Positions 11,653 to 31,704 of a stretch of DNA of 64,000 nt are shown one piece after another. The DNA is taken from assembly GCA_019639075.1 (NCBI GenBank), contig JAHBSO010000002.1, forward strand, positions 124,001 through 188,000, written 5' to 3'. The stretch comes from Actinomycetota bacterium. Lineage in GTDB: Bacteria > Actinomycetota > Acidimicrobiia > Acidimicrobiales > Iamiaceae. The notes beneath the pieces were generated by a model. That model saw nothing but the letters and a program-made list of their open reading frames with translations. It was not told where the DNA came from and made no database searches. A program made the translations under genes and the position numbers. How positions within the stretch are numbered: position 1 is the stretch's first letter; each line of letters opens with the position of its first letter.

Positions 11653-12318
11653 ATGGCCCGCCTGTTCACCGCCGACCTCCACCTCGGCCACGCCAACGTG
11701 ATCCGCTACTGCGACCGACCCTTCGCCGACGTCGACGAGATGGACCGCGCCCTCGTGGCCGGCTGGAACGCCGTCGTGGCCGACGACGACGAGGTGTGGG
11801 TGCTGGGCGATCTCGCCATGGGCCCGCTCGCCCACTCGCTGGAGGTGGCCGCCGAGCTGCAGGGGCGCAAGCACCTGGTGATCGGCAACCACGACCGCCC
11901 GTTCCACGGCAAGAAGGTCGACGAGTACGAGGCCGCCGGGTTCGAGCTGCACCACGGCACCGTGGAGCTGGTGCTGCCCGGCGGCGTGGTGGTCCACGCC
12001 TGCCACTTCCCCTACGTCGGCGACTCCGGCGACCTCGATCGCCACGTCGAGGACCGCCCGATCGACGACGGCGGCTGGCTGCTCCACGGCCACGTCCACG
12101 AGAAGTGGCGCCAGCGGGGTCGCATGGTCAACGTCGGCGTCGATGCCTGGGGCGGCCGCCCGGTCGAGGACCACGCGCTGGCCACCCTCGTCGCCGCCGG
12201 CGAGCACGACCTCGCCCCCCTCCGATGGTCACGGTCGGGGTCGGATCCCAACCGTGACGACGACGGGGATCACCGGCCCGAGGGCGGACGCACGGTTGGG
12301 ATCCGACCCCGACCGTGA
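11653..12318 (+). CDS. Calcineurin-like metallophosphoesterase
   Basis: A 221-residue phosphoesterase. The metal site is complete: TADLHLGH (residues 6-13), VLGDLAMG with the second Asp, GNHDRP, then HACHFPY and LHGHVHEKW. The size and the DLHLGHANVI start match the bacterial family annotated as phosphohydrolases or phage-type phosphoesterases of unknown substrate. The last roughly 30 residues are odd. The conserved domain ends around HDLAPLRW, and the remaining tail (SRSGSDPNRDDD to VGIRPRP) is translated from both arms of the inverted repeat at 12228-12319. The stop codon lies inside the repeat. The native stop was therefore probably lost to, or supplied by, the repeat. Confidence 0.5.
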   Translation: MARLFTADLHLGHANVIRYCDRPFADVDEMDRALVAGWNAVVADDDEVWVLGDLAMGPLAHSLEVAAELQGRKHLVIGNHDRPFHGKKVDEYEAAGFELHHGTVELVLPGGVVVHACHFPYVGDSGDLDRHVEDRPIDDGGWLLHGHVHEKWRQRGRMVNVGVDAWGGRPVEDHALATLVAAGEHDLAPLRWSRSGSDPNRDDDGDHRPEGGRTVGIRPRP

Positions 12319-12319
12319 C
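12228..12319. repeat. IR-type palindrome, 29-bp perfect arms, convergent junction
   Basis: The arms 12228-12256 and 12291-12319 are exact complements with a 34-bp spacer; the core is GGGGTCGGATCCCAACCGTG. It lies between the convergent phosphoesterase and Baeyer-Villiger monooxygenase genes and ends 11 bp before the stop of the latter. It probably works as a bidirectional terminator and overlaps the 3' coding end of the phosphoesterase gene. Related elements occur at 18471, 22069 and 31621. Confidence 0.5.
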
Positions 12320-12329
12320 GACCGTCGCG

Positions 12330-15544: not shown

Positions 15545-17817
<2,273 letters not shown>

Positions 17818-17822
<5 letters not shown>

Positions 17823-18243
17823 CCGCGCAGTCGGGGCAGCGGCCCCAGTAGACGACCTCGGCCTCGTCGATGGTGAAGCCATGGTCGTCGACGACGTCGA
17901 GGCAGGGCCGTGTGCCCATCGCGCAGTCGACGTCGACGAGACGGCCGCAGGCGCGGCAGATCAGGTGGTGGTGGTTGTCGTCGACCCGGTCCTCGTAGCG
18001 GGCGGGGGACCCCGCCGGCTCGATGCGCCGGAGCACGCCCTTCTCGGTGAGGACGGCGAGCGTGTCGTAGACGGCCTGGCGCGAGATCGCGCCGATCTCG
18101 TCGCGGGCCGCCGCATCGATGGCCTCGGCGGTGCCGTGGGGGTTGGCGGCGACCGCGGCCATGACCGCGAGCCGCTGGGCGGTCACCTGCAGGCCGTGGT
18201 CCCGGAGCACCTGGGCCCGGTCGGTGTGCGTGTCGGGGGGCAC
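17818..18243 (-). CDS. furA: Fur-family repressor, FurA/PerR-like, upstream of katG
   Basis: A 141-residue metalloregulator: winged-helix DNA-binding domain (about residues 10-80, with [19 protein letters not shown] as the recognition helix) and a dimerisation domain with HHH (91-93). There are two CxxC pairs, CRAC (96-99) and CPDC (136-139), forming the structural zinc site. Same-strand position directly upstream of katG fits the actinobacterial FurA that represses its own operon and responds to peroxide. The GTG at 18243 gives a normal N-terminus. A 17-bp perfect inverted repeat about 22 bp upstream (18265-18281) is a candidate autoregulatory operator. Confidence 0.5.
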
Positions 18244-18264
18244 AGGTCCTGTTCTACATCGACT

Positions 18265-18281
18265 TCTGGATCTTGTCCAGA
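18265..18281. promoter_or_regulatory. Candidate Fur-type operator upstream of furA-katG
   Basis: TCTGGA-TCTTG-TCCAGA, a perfect 6-bp inverted repeat with a 5-bp spacer, about 22 bp before the GTG start of furA. Position and symmetry suit an autorepressor site. It is less AT-rich than the mycobacterial FurA box, so this is inference. Confidence 0.5.
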
Positions 18282-18292
18282 GTTCGCGCTGG

Positions 18293-18457
18293 GGTTCGGC
18301 CGCCCGCACCGGCCCGGGCGGCGAGCTCGTCCCGCTGGCCGACCAGGACCGGTCGCGATGGGACCGGGCGCTGATCGACGAGGGCACCGACCTCCTGCTG
18401 CGCACCCTCCCGAAGGGCCGGCTCGGCCCGTACCAGCTCCAGGCGGCCGACGAAGCC
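18293..18457 (+). pseudogene. Relic of a DUF6596-type ECF sigma factor
   Basis: In frame +2 the bases encode [19 protein letters not shown] and then [14 protein letters not shown] and [15 protein letters not shown]. From memory this closely resembles the middle of sigma factors with a C-terminal DUF6596 region (GELVxLADQDRxRWDRALIxEG ... [16 protein letters not shown]). Only about 55 residues are left. The run QAADEA lacks the usual IAAVH-type residues, an apparent 5-codon in-frame deletion, and no start, region 2 or region 4 remains. An inverted repeat begins 14 bp downstream. This is most of what the 355-bp gap 18244-18598 holds; the rest is the furA operator, the repeat and the RBS of the next gene. 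Confidence 0.5.
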
Positions 18458-18470
18458 GGACCTCCACCAC

Positions 18471-18551
18471 AGTTGGGGTCGGATCCCAACCGTGACGTCG
18501 ATCGCGAGTTGGACCCTGCGGGGCGATCACGGTTGGGATCCGACCCCAACT
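18471..18551. repeat. IR-type palindrome, 25-bp arms, in a divergent gap
   Basis: The arms 18471-18495 (AGTTGGGGTCGGATCCCAAC start) and 18527-18551 are perfect complements. It belongs to the same family as 12228, 22069 and 31621. It is the only copy that does not lie at a convergent junction: it follows the sigma relic and precedes the start of a secreted-protein gene. It probably once ended the lost sigma gene. Confidence 0.5.
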
Positions 18552-18598
18552 GTCACGCGTTGGTACGGTCCCGCCGGGACATGACCGGGAGGGGACCC

Positions 18599-21049
18599 AT
18601 GGGGAGGCGTCGCACGACGACGTTCGCGACTGCGGCGGTGCTGGCCGTGCTCGCGGTGGTGCTCGTCGCGCCCGACCCGGGTGGGCGCCCACCCGCGGCC
18701 GCCGCGCCCGGGGCCACCGTCGACGAGCTCACCGACCGGCTCCTCACCGTGCGGCCCGACGTCGGGCCCACCTGGGTGGTGTCGATCGACGGGCTGTCGA
18801 CCGGCCGCCGGGCCCTCCTGCTGAGCCTCCAGGGCATCGTCAACCGCACCCGGGCCCGCCTCTACGTCACCGATGCCTCGGACCAGGGCGCGCAGCGGTG
18901 GCTCGACACGTACCAGGACGAGGGTCTGCTCACCGTGGCCGGCACCACCGACCTGGCCGGTGCCGTCAGCCGGTTCGCGAGCGAGGCCAGCGGGTACGTG
19001 ATCGCCGACCCGGCCGAACCGTGGACGGTGAACGTCGCCATGACCATCGCCGCGGCCAGCGGCGCGGTGGTGGTGACCGTCGACGACGTGCCGCTCCTGG
19101 AGGCCCAGGGGCTGACGCTGGTCGAGGACGTCCGGGGCCGGTGGACCGACGCCGCGACCGCGTACGAGGACCTGGTCGACGACTGGGCCGCACGGCTCCC
19201 CCACGCCGGCGTCGCGGTGCTGCGGCCCGACGACCGGCTCTACGACTTCACCGTCCAGCAGGGCATCCTCACGCTCTTCACCCGCCCGTCGGACCCCGAC
19301 TGGGGACGCATCAGCGCGCTGATCACCGCCCGACCGGCGGGCACCCCCGTGTTCGGGTACCTGTCCGACACCGGTGACGAGGAGGCCGTCGCCGTCGGGA
19401 CCCTGGCCAGCGCCGGCCTCGTCCTCATCCCCACCGACACCACGAGGAACCTGTCCTTCCAGGTGGCCGTGGGCGCCGACCGGCCCCGGGCGACGATCCC
19501 GACCGTCGACCGCTCCTCGGTCGAACCGTGCGAGCCCGACACGCTCAACGTCGTGGTCGGCCTCACCGACGGCGACAACATCAACGTGCCCCTCAACCGG
19601 TTCTCGGGACCGACGCAGTGGGGGTCGTCCCAGCGGGGCACGCTCCCGCTCGGCTGGTCGATGAGCCCGGCGCTGTCGATCCTCGCTCCGGCGGCCTGGG
19701 ACACCTACGTGCGCGAGGCGAGCCCGGCCGACGACCTGGTCGGCATGATCGGATGGGGCTACAGCGCGCCGAGCCTCCTGCCGGACCCGCAGGCGTTCTA
19801 CGAGACGTCGTTCACCCTCATGGACTCGCTCGGCCAACGCGCCTACTGGTCCCTCGGCGGCGGTTTGGAGACCCCCGGGGCCTCGGGCTGGGGCATCCTC
19901 GACGCCGCGGCGGCCACCACCCCGTCGGCGACGCCCGACCTGGTGCTCGTCGGTTACGGCGGCGGCACCGGGACCGGTCGCCTGCTCCACAGCCCCGCCG
20001 GGCGACCGGGCCTGACGTCGGGGTCGGCGTACCTCGACACCCCCGACGACCTGGCCGCCCAGATCGACGACCTCGCGTCGCGGGATCCCGCCGACCGTCC
20101 GCTGGTGTCGTTCCTCTCGGCGACCAACTGGTCGAACGGCGCCGCCGCGCTCATCGACCGCCTCCGCCCCTACCAGGACGACGGCGTCCGCTTCCTCACA
20201 CCCTCGGACGCCGCGGCCTGCCTGCCACCGGCCGAACCTCCCGTCGAACCGGTGGCCGGGCCGGGCGAGTGCCTCCCCTCGGAGGCGCCGACGCCGTTCG
20301 GCCTCGCCCTCATCAGCGACGCGACGGTCGCGGACATGGCCGCGGTACCGACGCCGTCGCTCGTCGACGTGACCGTCGACGGTCCGTCGACCGCTGCGCC
20401 GGGATCGACGCTGACCTACACCGGACGCGTGCGCATCGACCTCCCGGCCGCCGCGGCCTCGATCCTCGCCGACCGCGTGCGACCCATCGTCGAGGCCGGC
20501 TACGGACCCGAGATCGCCGCCACCGCCTGGGTCGAGCTCGACCTGGCCGCGGTCGAGACGACCATCGCGCTCCCACCGGGGACGACCGCGTCGGGCACAC
20601 CGACGGTGACCGCCGGCCCGGGCGCCGCGACGTGGGGACCCGACGGACTCGTGGTGCGCGTGCCCGGACCGCTCTCCGAGGACGTCCGCGCGCCGGGCGA
20701 GCCGGTCGAGGTCGACCTGACCTGGGCCGTGCTCGTCGACGACACCGCCGCCGGCACCGTGGACCTCCCGGCCGCGTCGAGCACCTTCGACCTCGACCTG
20801 ACCATCGGCGTGCTGCTAGGCACCCTCCCCCTCACCGGCGGCGCCTCGGCCCCGTGGGCCTGCACCCCGGCGACCGAAGTCCTCGCCAGCACCACCGTCG
20901 CCGGTGCCCCCACCACCACGACGACCACGATCACCACCACGACGCCGACCACGGCCACGACGGCCACCCCGACGACGGGGACCGGGGCCGGGGCGACCAC
21001 CGCGGCGGCCGCGACGGCACGCAGCGGCGCCCCCGCCTACACCGGCTGA
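18599..21049 (+). CDS. Secreted GxGYxYxYxP-like putative glycoside hydrolase
   Basis: An 816-residue exported protein. The signal peptide is MGRRRTTTFATAAVLAVLAVV with an alanine-rich cleavage region near residue 36. The start is ATG 18599, chosen over 18581 for GGGAGGGG just upstream. SLQGIVNRTRARLYV, VGLTDGDNIN, PLGWSMSPAL and GWGYSAPSLLPD in that order recall the GxGYxYxYxP family (a putative glycoside hydrolase found mainly in Bacteroidetes and Actinobacteria). After about residue 590 comes a beta-rich region, then a threonine-rich low-complexity tail (20905-21000) that may span the wall or be glycosylated. No LPXTG motif is seen. No partner genes are evident; assignment is from memory and moderate. 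Confidence 0.5.
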   Translation: MGRRRTTTFATAAVLAVLAVVLVAPDPGGRPPAAAAPGATVDELTDRLLTVRPDVGPTWVVSIDGLSTGRRALLLSLQGIVNRTRARLYVTDASDQGAQRWLDTYQDEGLLTVAGTTDLAGAVSRFASEASGYVIADPAEPWTVNVAMTIAAASGAVVVTVDDVPLLEAQGLTLVEDVRGRWTDAATAYEDLVDDWAARLPHAGVAVLRPDDRLYDFTVQQGILTLFTRPSDPDWGRISALITARPAGTPVFGYLSDTGDEEAVAVGTLASAGLVLIPTDTTRNLSFQVAVGADRPRATIPTVDRSSVEPCEPDTLNVVVGLTDGDNINVPLNRFSGPTQWGSSQRGTLPLGWSMSPALSILAPAAWDTYVREASPADDLVGMIGWGYSAPSLLPDPQAFYETSFTLMDSLGQRAYWSLGGGLETPGASGWGILDAAAATTPSATPDLVLVGYGGGTGTGRLLHSPAGRPGLTSGSAYLDTPDDLAAQIDDLASRDPADRPLVSFLSATNWSNGAAALIDRLRPYQDDGVRFLTPSDAAACLPPAEPPVEPVAGPGECLPSEAPTPFGLALISDATVADMAAVPTPSLVDVTVDGPSTAAPGSTLTYTGRVRIDLPAAAASILADRVRPIVEAGYGPEIAATAWVELDLAAVETTIALPPGTTASGTPTVTAGPGAATWGPDGLVVRVPGPLSEDVRAPGEPVEVDLTWAVLVDDTAAGTVDLPAASSTFDLDLTIGVLLGTLPLTGGASAPWACTPATEVLASTTVAGAPTTTTTTITTTTPTTATTATPTTGTGAGATTAAAATARSGAPAYTG

Positions 21050-21063
21050 CTACGGTGCGCCGC

Positions 21064-22071
21064 ATGCAACCGAGCGATCCGCAGGCGGTGCTCGCGCCGA
21101 TGACCGCCGCCGCCGTCTTCATGGTCGCCACCATCGACGACGGCGGCGAGGACGCGATCCGCGAGCTCCTCCCCGACCTGGCCGCGCTGTGCCGCACGGT
21201 GGGCAGCCGGAGCCCGGACGGTCGGCTCACGCTCGTCACCGGCATCGGCGCGGAGGCCTGGGACCGGCTGTTCGACGGCCCGCGCCCCGCGCACCTCCAC
21301 CCGTTCGTCGAGCTCCGGGGCGACGTCCACCACGCACCGGCCACCCCCGGCGACCTGCTCTTCCACATCCGGGCCGAGCGCGTCGACCTCTGCTTCGAGC
21401 TCGCCATGCTGATCACGGAACGCCTGGCCGGCGCGGCGACGGTGGTCGACGAGGTCCACGGGTTCCGCTACTTCGACGACCGGGCCATGTTGGCTTTCGT
21501 CGACGGCGTCGAGAACCCGACCGGGCGGGCCGCGGTCGATGCCGTGCTGGTCGCCGACGACGACCCCGACTTCGCCGGGTCGAGCTACGTGATCGTCCAG
21601 AAGTACCTGCACGACATGGACGCCTGGAACGCCATGGCGGTCGAGGCCCAGGAAGTGGTGATCGGTCGGAGGAAGGCCTCCAACCTCGAGCTCTCCGACG
21701 AGGAGAAGGCCCCGGGCAGCCACAACGTCGTCACCAACATCACCGACGACGACGGCAACGAGCTGAAGATCCTCCGGGAGAACATGCCGTTCGGCGCGCC
21801 GGGTCGCGGCGAGTTCGGCACCTACTTCATCGGCTACGCCGCCGACCCGGCCGTCACCGGGCGGATGATCGAGAACATGTTCGTGGGCGACCCGCGCTCG
21901 GGCGCCACCGACCTCATCCTCGACGTGTCGACCGCGGTCACCGGCTCGCTGTTCGCGGTGCCGACCGCGACGTTCCTCGACGATCCCCCGGGCCCACCCG
22001 GGACCCCCGCCGCCGCACCCGAACCCGACCCAGACGACTCCCTCGGCATCGGCAAGCTCGCCGCCGACTGA
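21064..22071 (+). CDS. DyP-type heme peroxidase with encapsulin-targeting C-terminus
   Basis: A 335-residue dye-decolorising peroxidase. The distal Asp is in AFVDGVENPTG (Asp147, the GxxDG motif), the proximal heme ligand is His220 in PGSHNVV, and the distal Arg is near 238 in LRENMPFG. After a Pro/Asp-rich linker (about residues 307-325) the protein ends SLGIGKLAAD (326-335). This matches the short cargo tail by which DyP peroxidases dock inside encapsulin shells (SLxIGSLK type). Encapsulin is normally encoded next door, but here the next gene is a convergent MFS transporter. The start ATG 21064 lies 14 bp after the upstream stop. The stop codon is part of the palindrome at 22069. Confidence 0.5.
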   Translation: MQPSDPQAVLAPMTAAAVFMVATIDDGGEDAIRELLPDLAALCRTVGSRSPDGRLTLVTGIGAEAWDRLFDGPRPAHLHPFVELRGDVHHAPATPGDLLFHIRAERVDLCFELAMLITERLAGAATVVDEVHGFRYFDDRAMLAFVDGVENPTGRAAVDAVLVADDDPDFAGSSYVIVQKYLHDMDAWNAMAVEAQEVVIGRRKASNLELSDEEKAPGSHNVVTNITDDDGNELKILRENMPFGAPGRGEFGTYFIGYAADPAVTGRMIENMFVGDPRSGATDLILDVSTAVTGSLFAVPTATFLDDPPGPPGTPAAAPEPDPDDSLGIGKLAAD

Positions 22072-22167
22072 CGCGCGATCGGGGTCGGATCCCGACCGTG
22101 ACGATCGAGGCGGGTTCGAACCCGCGGATGGAGATCACGGTCGGGATCCGACCCCGATCGTGCGTCA
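22069..22167. repeat. IR-type palindrome, 33-bp arms containing both stop codons
   Basis: The arms 22069-22101 and 22135-22167 are complementary with one mismatched position; the core is GGGGTCGGATCCCGACCGTG. The first three bases of the left arm are the DyP stop (TGA) and the last three of the right arm are the complement of the MFS stop. The element is thus exactly fitted between the two convergent reading frames and is a likely bidirectional terminator. Confidence 0.5.
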
Positions 22168-23478
22168 CGTGGCGAGGCGGGCGAGGGCCTCGGCGCGGGC
22201 CCGGTCGACGTCGGGAACAAGGAAGCGGCGGGCCGAGGCGAGGATGAGCCCGGCGGCGATCGCCACCGGCACCATCACCAGCGTGCTGGCCTGGAGCCCG
22301 TAGCGGTCCGACACCGCGCCCATCACCGGGAGGACGATGAGGAGCCCGGGCACCGCGAACACCGCGATCGTCGAGAAGCCGGCGGCCCGCACCCGGGGCG
22401 GGATGACGAACGACAGGATCGAGAAGAACGCCGGGGCCAGCACCCCGATCGACGCCGCCAGCAGCGCGTGGACCGCGATCGCGGTGGCCAGGTTCGGGGC
22501 GTTGGCGAGGAGCACGAGCAGCAGCGCGTCGACCACCCCGATCACACCGACGAACCGCAGCAGGTAGCCCGGATCGTCGCCGCTGCGCCGCGACAGCCAG
22601 GGCATCACCGTGAGCACGCCCACGATCTGCAGCGGCTCGACCCCGGCGGCCACCAGGCCGCGCTGCAGGCTGTTCAGCCCGTAGATGTCCTCGTAGACGA
22701 GCGACAGCACGTTGGGCACGCCGAACAGCGCCACTGCCAGCAGCGGGATCGCCCACCACACCCGGCGGATCGTGCCGACCCGGCCGAGGGTGCGGAACGT
22801 CCCCCACACCCCTTCGGGCTCCTCCTCCACGGCCGCCGCGGCGTCGTCGGCCCCGGCGGCTCGTCGCTCGTGGGCACCCCGCACCGGTTCGTGCAGCCGG
22901 AGGGCGGCCAGCACGACGATCGCGGTGGGCACGGCGAAGAAGATGAACGGCGTCCGCCACCCGAACGCCCACGCCAACCCGCCGGCGAGGAGCGGCCCGG
23001 CGATCTGGCCGACCGAGTTGCCCAGGCGGTGGACCGAGAACACCTTCACCCGGGTCTCCGGCGGGTACCAGTCCGACAGGAGCGAGTTGTGGGTGGGCTC
23101 GTTGACCGCCCGTCCGGTCCCGGCACCGATCCGGGCCACGACGAGGGTGAAGGCGTTGACCGCGAGCCCGGTGCCGACCGAGAACAGCGCCCACACCGAC
23201 GCGCCGATCGTGGCGATGCGCACCCGGTTGGCCCGGTCGCACCAGAACGACAGCGGCACCGAGATCAGGATCACCGCGACGTTGGAGACGGCGACGATCG
23301 CCAGCGCGCCGGCGTCGCCGAGGCCGAAGTGGTCCCGGATGTCGGGCAGCAGGACCGAGAACCCGACGCGATCGAGCTCGTCGACCGCGTTGAGCCCGAA
23401 CAGGACCAACAGCGGGTAGACGGCCCCTCCCCCGGTGACGTCGGAGGCCCACGCCCTCACGCGCCCGACGGGTCGCAC
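22165..23478 (-). CDS. MFS transporter
   Basis: About 437 residues with 12 predicted membrane helices. The motif-A loop after helix 2 reads SFWCDRANRVRIA, and a long acidic/alanine cytoplasmic loop (HERRAAGADDAAAAVEEEPEG) separates the halves. The general form is that of the sugar/organic-anion or spinster-like group; the substrate is unknown. The start is uncertain: GTG 23478 behind GGGATCTGGG is chosen because the first hydrophobic segment (VYPLLVLFGLNAV) follows about 20 residues later. It is convergent with the DyP gene. The upstream CSLREA lipoprotein gene ends 77 bp away on the same strand. Confidence 0.5.
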   Translation of the reverse strand: MRPVGRVRAWASDVTGGGAVYPLLVLFGLNAVDELDRVGFSVLLPDIRDHFGLGDAGALAIVAVSNVAVILISVPLSFWCDRANRVRIATIGASVWALFSVGTGLAVNAFTLVVARIGAGTGRAVNEPTHNSLLSDWYPPETRVKVFSVHRLGNSVGQIAGPLLAGGLAWAFGWRTPFIFFAVPTAIVVLAALRLHEPVRGAHERRAAGADDAAAAVEEEPEGVWGTFRTLGRVGTIRRVWWAIPLLAVALFGVPNVLSLVYEDIYGLNSLQRGLVAAGVEPLQIVGVLTVMPWLSRRSGDDPGYLLRFVGVIGVVDALLLVLLANAPNLATAIAVHALLAASIGVLAPAFFSILSFVIPPRVRAAGFSTIAVFAVPGLLIVLPVMGAVSDRYGLQASTLVMVPVAIAAGLILASARRFLVPDVDRARAEALARLAT

Positions 23479-31615: not shown

Positions 31616-31620
31616 CCGCA

Positions 31621-31701
31621 CACCCGGGGTCGGACCCCGACCGTGCACGCGCCGCGATCGGCCACCTCGACCACGTCACGGTCGGGGTCCGACCCCGGGT
31701 G
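31621..31701. repeat. IR-type palindrome, 25-bp perfect arms, convergent junction
   Basis: The arms 31621-31645 (CACCCGGGGTCGGACCCCGA start) and 31677-31701 are exact complements. It lies within the 89-bp gap between the stops of the AI-2E family and SHOCT genes, ending 3 bp before the SHOCT stop. The core is diverged (GGACCCC rather than GGATCCC), with a nested small palindrome in each arm. Confidence 0.5.
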
Positions 31702-31704
31702 GGC

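Follow-up and report, generated by a model that had tools for sequence, protein, structure and literature searches.

A dye-decolorizing peroxidase that has probably outlived its encapsulin shell

The 64-kb stretch of DNA analysed here (the window) encodes a P-type dye-decolorizing peroxidase (DyP) with a C-terminal tail of the encapsulin targeting type. Compared with 92 related P-type DyP loci, it is the sole tail without a shell. The explanation we favor, which is probably correct, is that the shell of a DyP-encapsulin pair was lost and that the DyP remains as a free peroxidase whose targeting peptide is decaying. In the open-access literature, no paper on DyP-encapsulin gene loss was found.

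DyP gene and protein

The protein encoded by the DyP gene (Table 1) ends in ...DDPPGPPGTPAAAPEPDPDDSLGIGKLAAD. Both DyP domains were found using Pfam, Dyp_perox_N at 8.9e-36 and Dyp_perox_C at 6.3e-51, with the full length covered, and the protein also matched the DyP superfamily model TIGR01413 (NCBIfam). Its best solved relative was 7bok_A, a 'Dyp-type peroxidase' (2.1e-129), and the alignment runs through the 7bok_A tail, ...DGSLGIGSLK; the nearest relatives in the PDB were P-type DyPs, many with the label encapsulated subgroup. Other DyPs of the congeners, including class A proteins (~30% identity), belong to a different subfamily, are tail-less and were set aside.

The window DyP has the proximal His220 and the distal Asp147, Arg238 and Asn240, each of which occurs in 89 of 89 distinct aligned sequences; with its catalytic residues intact, the gene is not a pseudogene. 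The Ala at the first position of the GxxDG motif (G144A) is unique to the window DyP among the 89 sequences. Of the 91 columns with at least 95% conservation, the protein departs from the conserved residue at 7, the highest count in the alignment, and three of these departures (D141A, G144A and T149V) lie around the distal Asp. In the maximum-likelihood tree its end branch (0.72) is the longest of 89, the median being 0.098. The long branch and the unusual substitutions are compatible with relaxed constraint.

Table 1. Positions of the DyP gene, its motifs and the neighboring features in the window
Feature	Position	Strand	Remarks
Catalase-peroxidase (KatG-like)	15545..17731	-	
Fur-family regulator	17818..18303	-	start uncertain
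GxGYxYP putative glycoside hydrolase	18515..21049	+	start uncertain; ends 14 bp before DyP start
P-type (DypB-like) dye-decolorizing peroxidase gene	21064..22071	+	335 aa plus stop; Pfam, NCBIfam TIGR01413, PDB 7bok
GxxDG motif, here AFVDG (residues 144-148)	21493..21507	+	Asp147 kept, Gly144 replaced by Ala
Pro/Ala/Asp-rich linker, 20 aa	21979..22038	+	17-45 aa in tail-bearing relatives
Targeting-peptide-like tail SLGIGKLAAD	22039..22068	+	alignment, profile score; PMC10960027
Species-specific interspersed hairpin repeat	22074..22162		arms GGGGTCGGATCCCGACCGTGA + complement, loop ~33 nt
MFS transporter	22165..23446	-	convergent with DyP gene after 93-bp gap; start approximate

Genomic setting

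The GxGYxYP protein upstream of the DyP is signal-like at its N-terminus and rich in Thr at its C-terminus; no other DyP locus in the comparison has its gene as a neighbor. On the other side, the MFS gene has orthologues at 67% in two congeners, where the neighbors differ and neither a DyP nor a shell is present. By this test the congeners do not preserve the gene order seen around the DyP, so the ancestral locus is unreadable from them. A window-type DyP was found in none of the 11 congeners and in none of 12 other family members; the ancestral operon is therefore reconstructed from distant relatives.

C-terminal tail

The tail keeps the Leu, Ile and Leu anchors together with the Ser and both Gly residues, and occupies the same position in the alignment as the tails of 68 distinct relatives. 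Given the composition of the window DyP, the chance of SLx[IV]GxL in the last 15 residues is ~3e-5, and among 1271 stop codons in the six frames of the window, only the DyP has this motif at a true C-terminus. The low motif probability, the single true C-terminus and the homologous position together indicate that the tail did not arise by chance.

The match is nevertheless imperfect. The usual ending is ...GSLxIGSLK, whereas the window DyP has ...DSLGIGKLA. At the position before the last Leu, where 63 of 68 relatives have Ser, the window DyP has Lys, which occurs in 0 of the 68; at position 7, after the last Leu, it has Ala where 67 of the 68 distinct relatives have K or R. The profile score of the tail, 17.4 bits, is the lowest of 69 (next lowest, 21.1; median of the 68 others, 32.8). 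In the Klebsiella system, Ala at the equivalent Lys346, the last basic tail position, by itself abolished loading (PMC10960027). The window tail is probably no longer functional for loading. At the position matching the Lys of the window tail, Lys is also found in GGDLGIRK, the native peptide of Thermotoga (PMC7925596), so the basic charge may have shifted position instead of being lost. Retention of SLGIG and the last Leu despite the long branch suggests either that the shell was lost recently or that the tail is still useful; with no constraint at all, a peptide would probably have kept fewer of these residues.

The original prediction had described a DyP at these coordinates with a linker and the tail SLGIGKLAAD, on all of which the ORF, the Pfam domains and the alignment agree. 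Its identification of the tail as a DyP cargo peptide holds for homology (7bok_A and the 68 relatives) but not for the quality of the match, given the lowest score of 69 and the loss of the terminal basic residue.

Linkage of tail and shell among relatives

The 92 related P-type DyP loci comprised 80 from reference genomes and 12 from the same order; plasmid-borne DyP relatives exist and are left out of the tail count. An encapsulin ORF was directly downstream in 72 of 72 tail-bearing loci, while the fetched flanks of tail-less loci contained an encapsulin in 0 of 20. With linkage this tight, finding a tail but no shell is informative. In the maximum-likelihood tree the tail-plus-shell state underwent at least 6 changes on well-supported branches; tail and shell thus come and go together, and loss of the pair appears common. 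The branches nearest the window DyP have weak support.

Among the same-order genomes with a tail-less DyP, 9 of 10 were without any PF04454. The tenth (G369, locus L112) has, in addition to its tail-less DyP, a separate encapsulin and a ferritin-like cargo with an SLGIGDL tail; DyP and shell coexist in this genome, apparently unlinked.

Search for a shell gene

The genome assembly (2.74 Mb, 28 contigs) was judged 79% complete. Searching it with PF04454 (Pfam) gave no match, while the controls (Thermotoga maritima, Sulfolobus and Methanosarcina) gave matches. No encapsulin was found in the assembled genome using a congener shell protein as query (best E 0.06) or a 16-sequence encapsulin profile (best E 0.058). 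Weak encapsulin matches at C11:27418 (E 0.063) and C2:28426 (E 0.058) were short and at noise level, and were rejected. Encapsulated ferritin-like cargo was likewise absent from the assembled 2.74 Mb; a weak match at C12:100546 (E 0.75) covered only a 32-residue, linker-like stretch and was also rejected.

The 64-kb window is free of encapsulin genes, in agreement with the original prediction. The search of the full genome that the prediction had set as its refuting test went against it as far as the sequence reaches: no homologue was present in the assembled 79% by PF04454, the congener shell or the 16-sequence profile. Of the two outcomes that had been offered, a shell probably encoded elsewhere or a relic tail, the relic is preferred, with a shell elsewhere the less likely of the two. 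On its 352-kb contig the DyP gene sits at ~145 kb, so the missing shell is not a contig-end artefact and an adjacent shell is certainly absent. With the assembly 79% complete, absence from the genome is not proven and a shell may sit in the missing fifth.

Encapsulins of the congeners

Family 1 encapsulins with ferritin-like cargo are present in 3 of 11 congeners (G002, G008 and G010), in differing surroundings. In two of these, cargo and encapsulin are separate genes and the cargos have tails, which, where present among the congeners, read GLGIGSLR and GSLGLGSLR. In the other (L108 1693-2856; G008:C108) a single open frame, uninterrupted by a stop, spans the ferritin-like cargo and the encapsulin, and the cargo has no tail; this looks like a natural fusion of ferritin and encapsulin. 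Only the cassette itself is common to the three genomes, with no shared flanking genes, so a lost congener-type shell could not be traced by synteny.

Hairpin repeat downstream of the DyP gene

A hairpin repeat with 21-nt arms takes up almost all of the 93-bp gap between the DyP and MFS genes, the place at which relatives have the start of the shell gene. The repeat occurs at ~20 sites (28 strand hits) on many contigs of its own genome (G000), with 0 hits in the 11 congeners. In addition to the copy listed in Table 1, the window has copies at 12223-12324, 18469-18553 and 31618-31704. The arms are GGGGTCGGATCCCRACCGTGA and its complement, enclosing unrelated loops of ~25-34 nt, and where both arms were matched, a variable arm base (A or G) is paired by its complement in the other arm. 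The repeat is REPIN-like or terminator-like, and 3 of the 4 window copies lie between convergent genes. Its presence at the site of the shell-gene start in relatives makes a recent rearrangement plausible; because two other window copies also lie between convergent genes, this is a lead only.

Proposed history and alternative explanations

In the history that we propose, an ancestral Family 1 operon would have had the DyP gene directly upstream of the encapsulin shell gene, as in all tail-bearing relatives examined, and the C-terminal SLGIGxL peptide would have docked the DyP inside the shell. The shell gene would then have been lost in this lineage, the 93-bp gap with its hairpin repeat now occupying that space. 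The DyP, with its heme-ligand His and distal Asp, Arg and Asn, would probably act as a free cytosolic peroxidase encoded near katG and fur, and its tail would be decaying, with the hydrophobic anchors left and the terminal basic residue gone. We infer all three of the order of events, the loss of loading and the activity as a free enzyme.

It is possible, although we would not expect it, that the DyP is instead a secondary cargo, loaded in trans via its tail into a shell (the displaced original or a ferritin-type one like those of the congeners) encoded in the unassembled fifth. The 79% completeness of the assembly and the ferritin-type Family 1 encapsulins in 3 of 11 congeners leave room for such a shell, but neither a shell nor a ferritin-like cargo was found in the assembled 79%. 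Precedents are secondary cargos that bear targeting peptides and are encoded far from the shell gene, Myxococcus EncC and EncD being known and M. tuberculosis BfrB and FolB proposed (PMC8229669); set against this, the shell was always adjacent in the 72 tail-bearing relatives. The strongest point in its favor is the hydrophobic tail core kept on a long branch; the loss of the basic residue, an assembly with neither shell nor ferritin-like cargo, and the strict tail-shell linkage in relatives weigh most against it. That tail is without the basic residue that Klebsiella loading required (PMC10960027), though the Lys that precedes the last Leu might stand in for the missing charge, as in Thermotoga GGDLGIRK (PMC7925596). 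Should a shell be found, the DyP would be encoded apart from it and carry a divergent peptide, a case useful for defining loading rules.

A narrower and unlikely version has the DyP entering, in trans, a ferritin-type encapsulin from the unassembled part of the genome through a re-tuned SLGIGKLA with its basic residue before the last Leu. If so, a ferritin shell would carry the DyP as secondary cargo, and peroxide removal would be paired with iron storage.

We consider it quite improbable that the tail was kept for another role, such as hexamer stability or some other interaction, or that it binds a non-Family 1 shell. The tail core does survive although the branch is long and no shell was detected, but the free DyPs in the tree are tail-less (20 of 20), so the DyP fold does not need a tail; for Family 2 shells, larger N-terminal cargo domains have been proposed, which the type of cargo peptide seen here does not fit (PMC8346489). 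An assembly or binning artefact, in which the DyP locus came from another organism and the shell was binned elsewhere, is very improbable even though no congener or family genome has a window-type DyP, since the shell would still need to be adjacent, where unbroken DNA contains no shell gene; the hairpin repeat that follows the DyP gene recurs on many further contigs of this genome and is absent from the congeners, and the adjacent MFS gene has its 67% orthologues in two congeners.

A relic tail on a DyP that has lost its shell is ranked above a shell encoded elsewhere because of the lowest tail score, the loss of the terminal basic residue and the lack of any encapsulin in the assembled 79%. 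The window DyP resembles an intermediate step between an encapsulated peroxidase and a free enzyme, and several such changes are suggested by the tree. It also gives a caution, that a tail motif alone is insufficient for calling a cargo.

Comparison with known systems

Like the secondary cargos of M. xanthus (EncC and EncD) and M. tuberculosis (BfrB and FolB), the window DyP has a targeting peptide and no shell gene beside it; unlike the genomes of those organisms, which contain a shell gene, the assembled part of this one yielded none.

With the Family 1 DyP-encapsulin operons of Brevibacterium linens, Mycobacterium and Klebsiella pneumoniae it shares the P-type DyP with catalytic Asp, His, Arg and Asn, the disordered linker and a C-terminal SLxIGxL peptide at the same position. 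It differs from these operons, in which the DyP is followed by a Linocin_M18 shell, in having no shell adjacent or in the assembled genome, in its tail (DSLGIGKLA versus GSLxIGSLK) and in its distal motif (AxxDG versus GxxDG).

The catalytic domain is ~60% identical to those of free, tail-less P-type DyPs (SCO7193, PDB 4gu7, and the same-order loci L095-L097), and, in a comparison made with the loci and not with SCO7193, it resembles free DyPs in having no adjacent shell gene. Unlike these enzymes, the window DyP carries a linker-plus-peptide tail.
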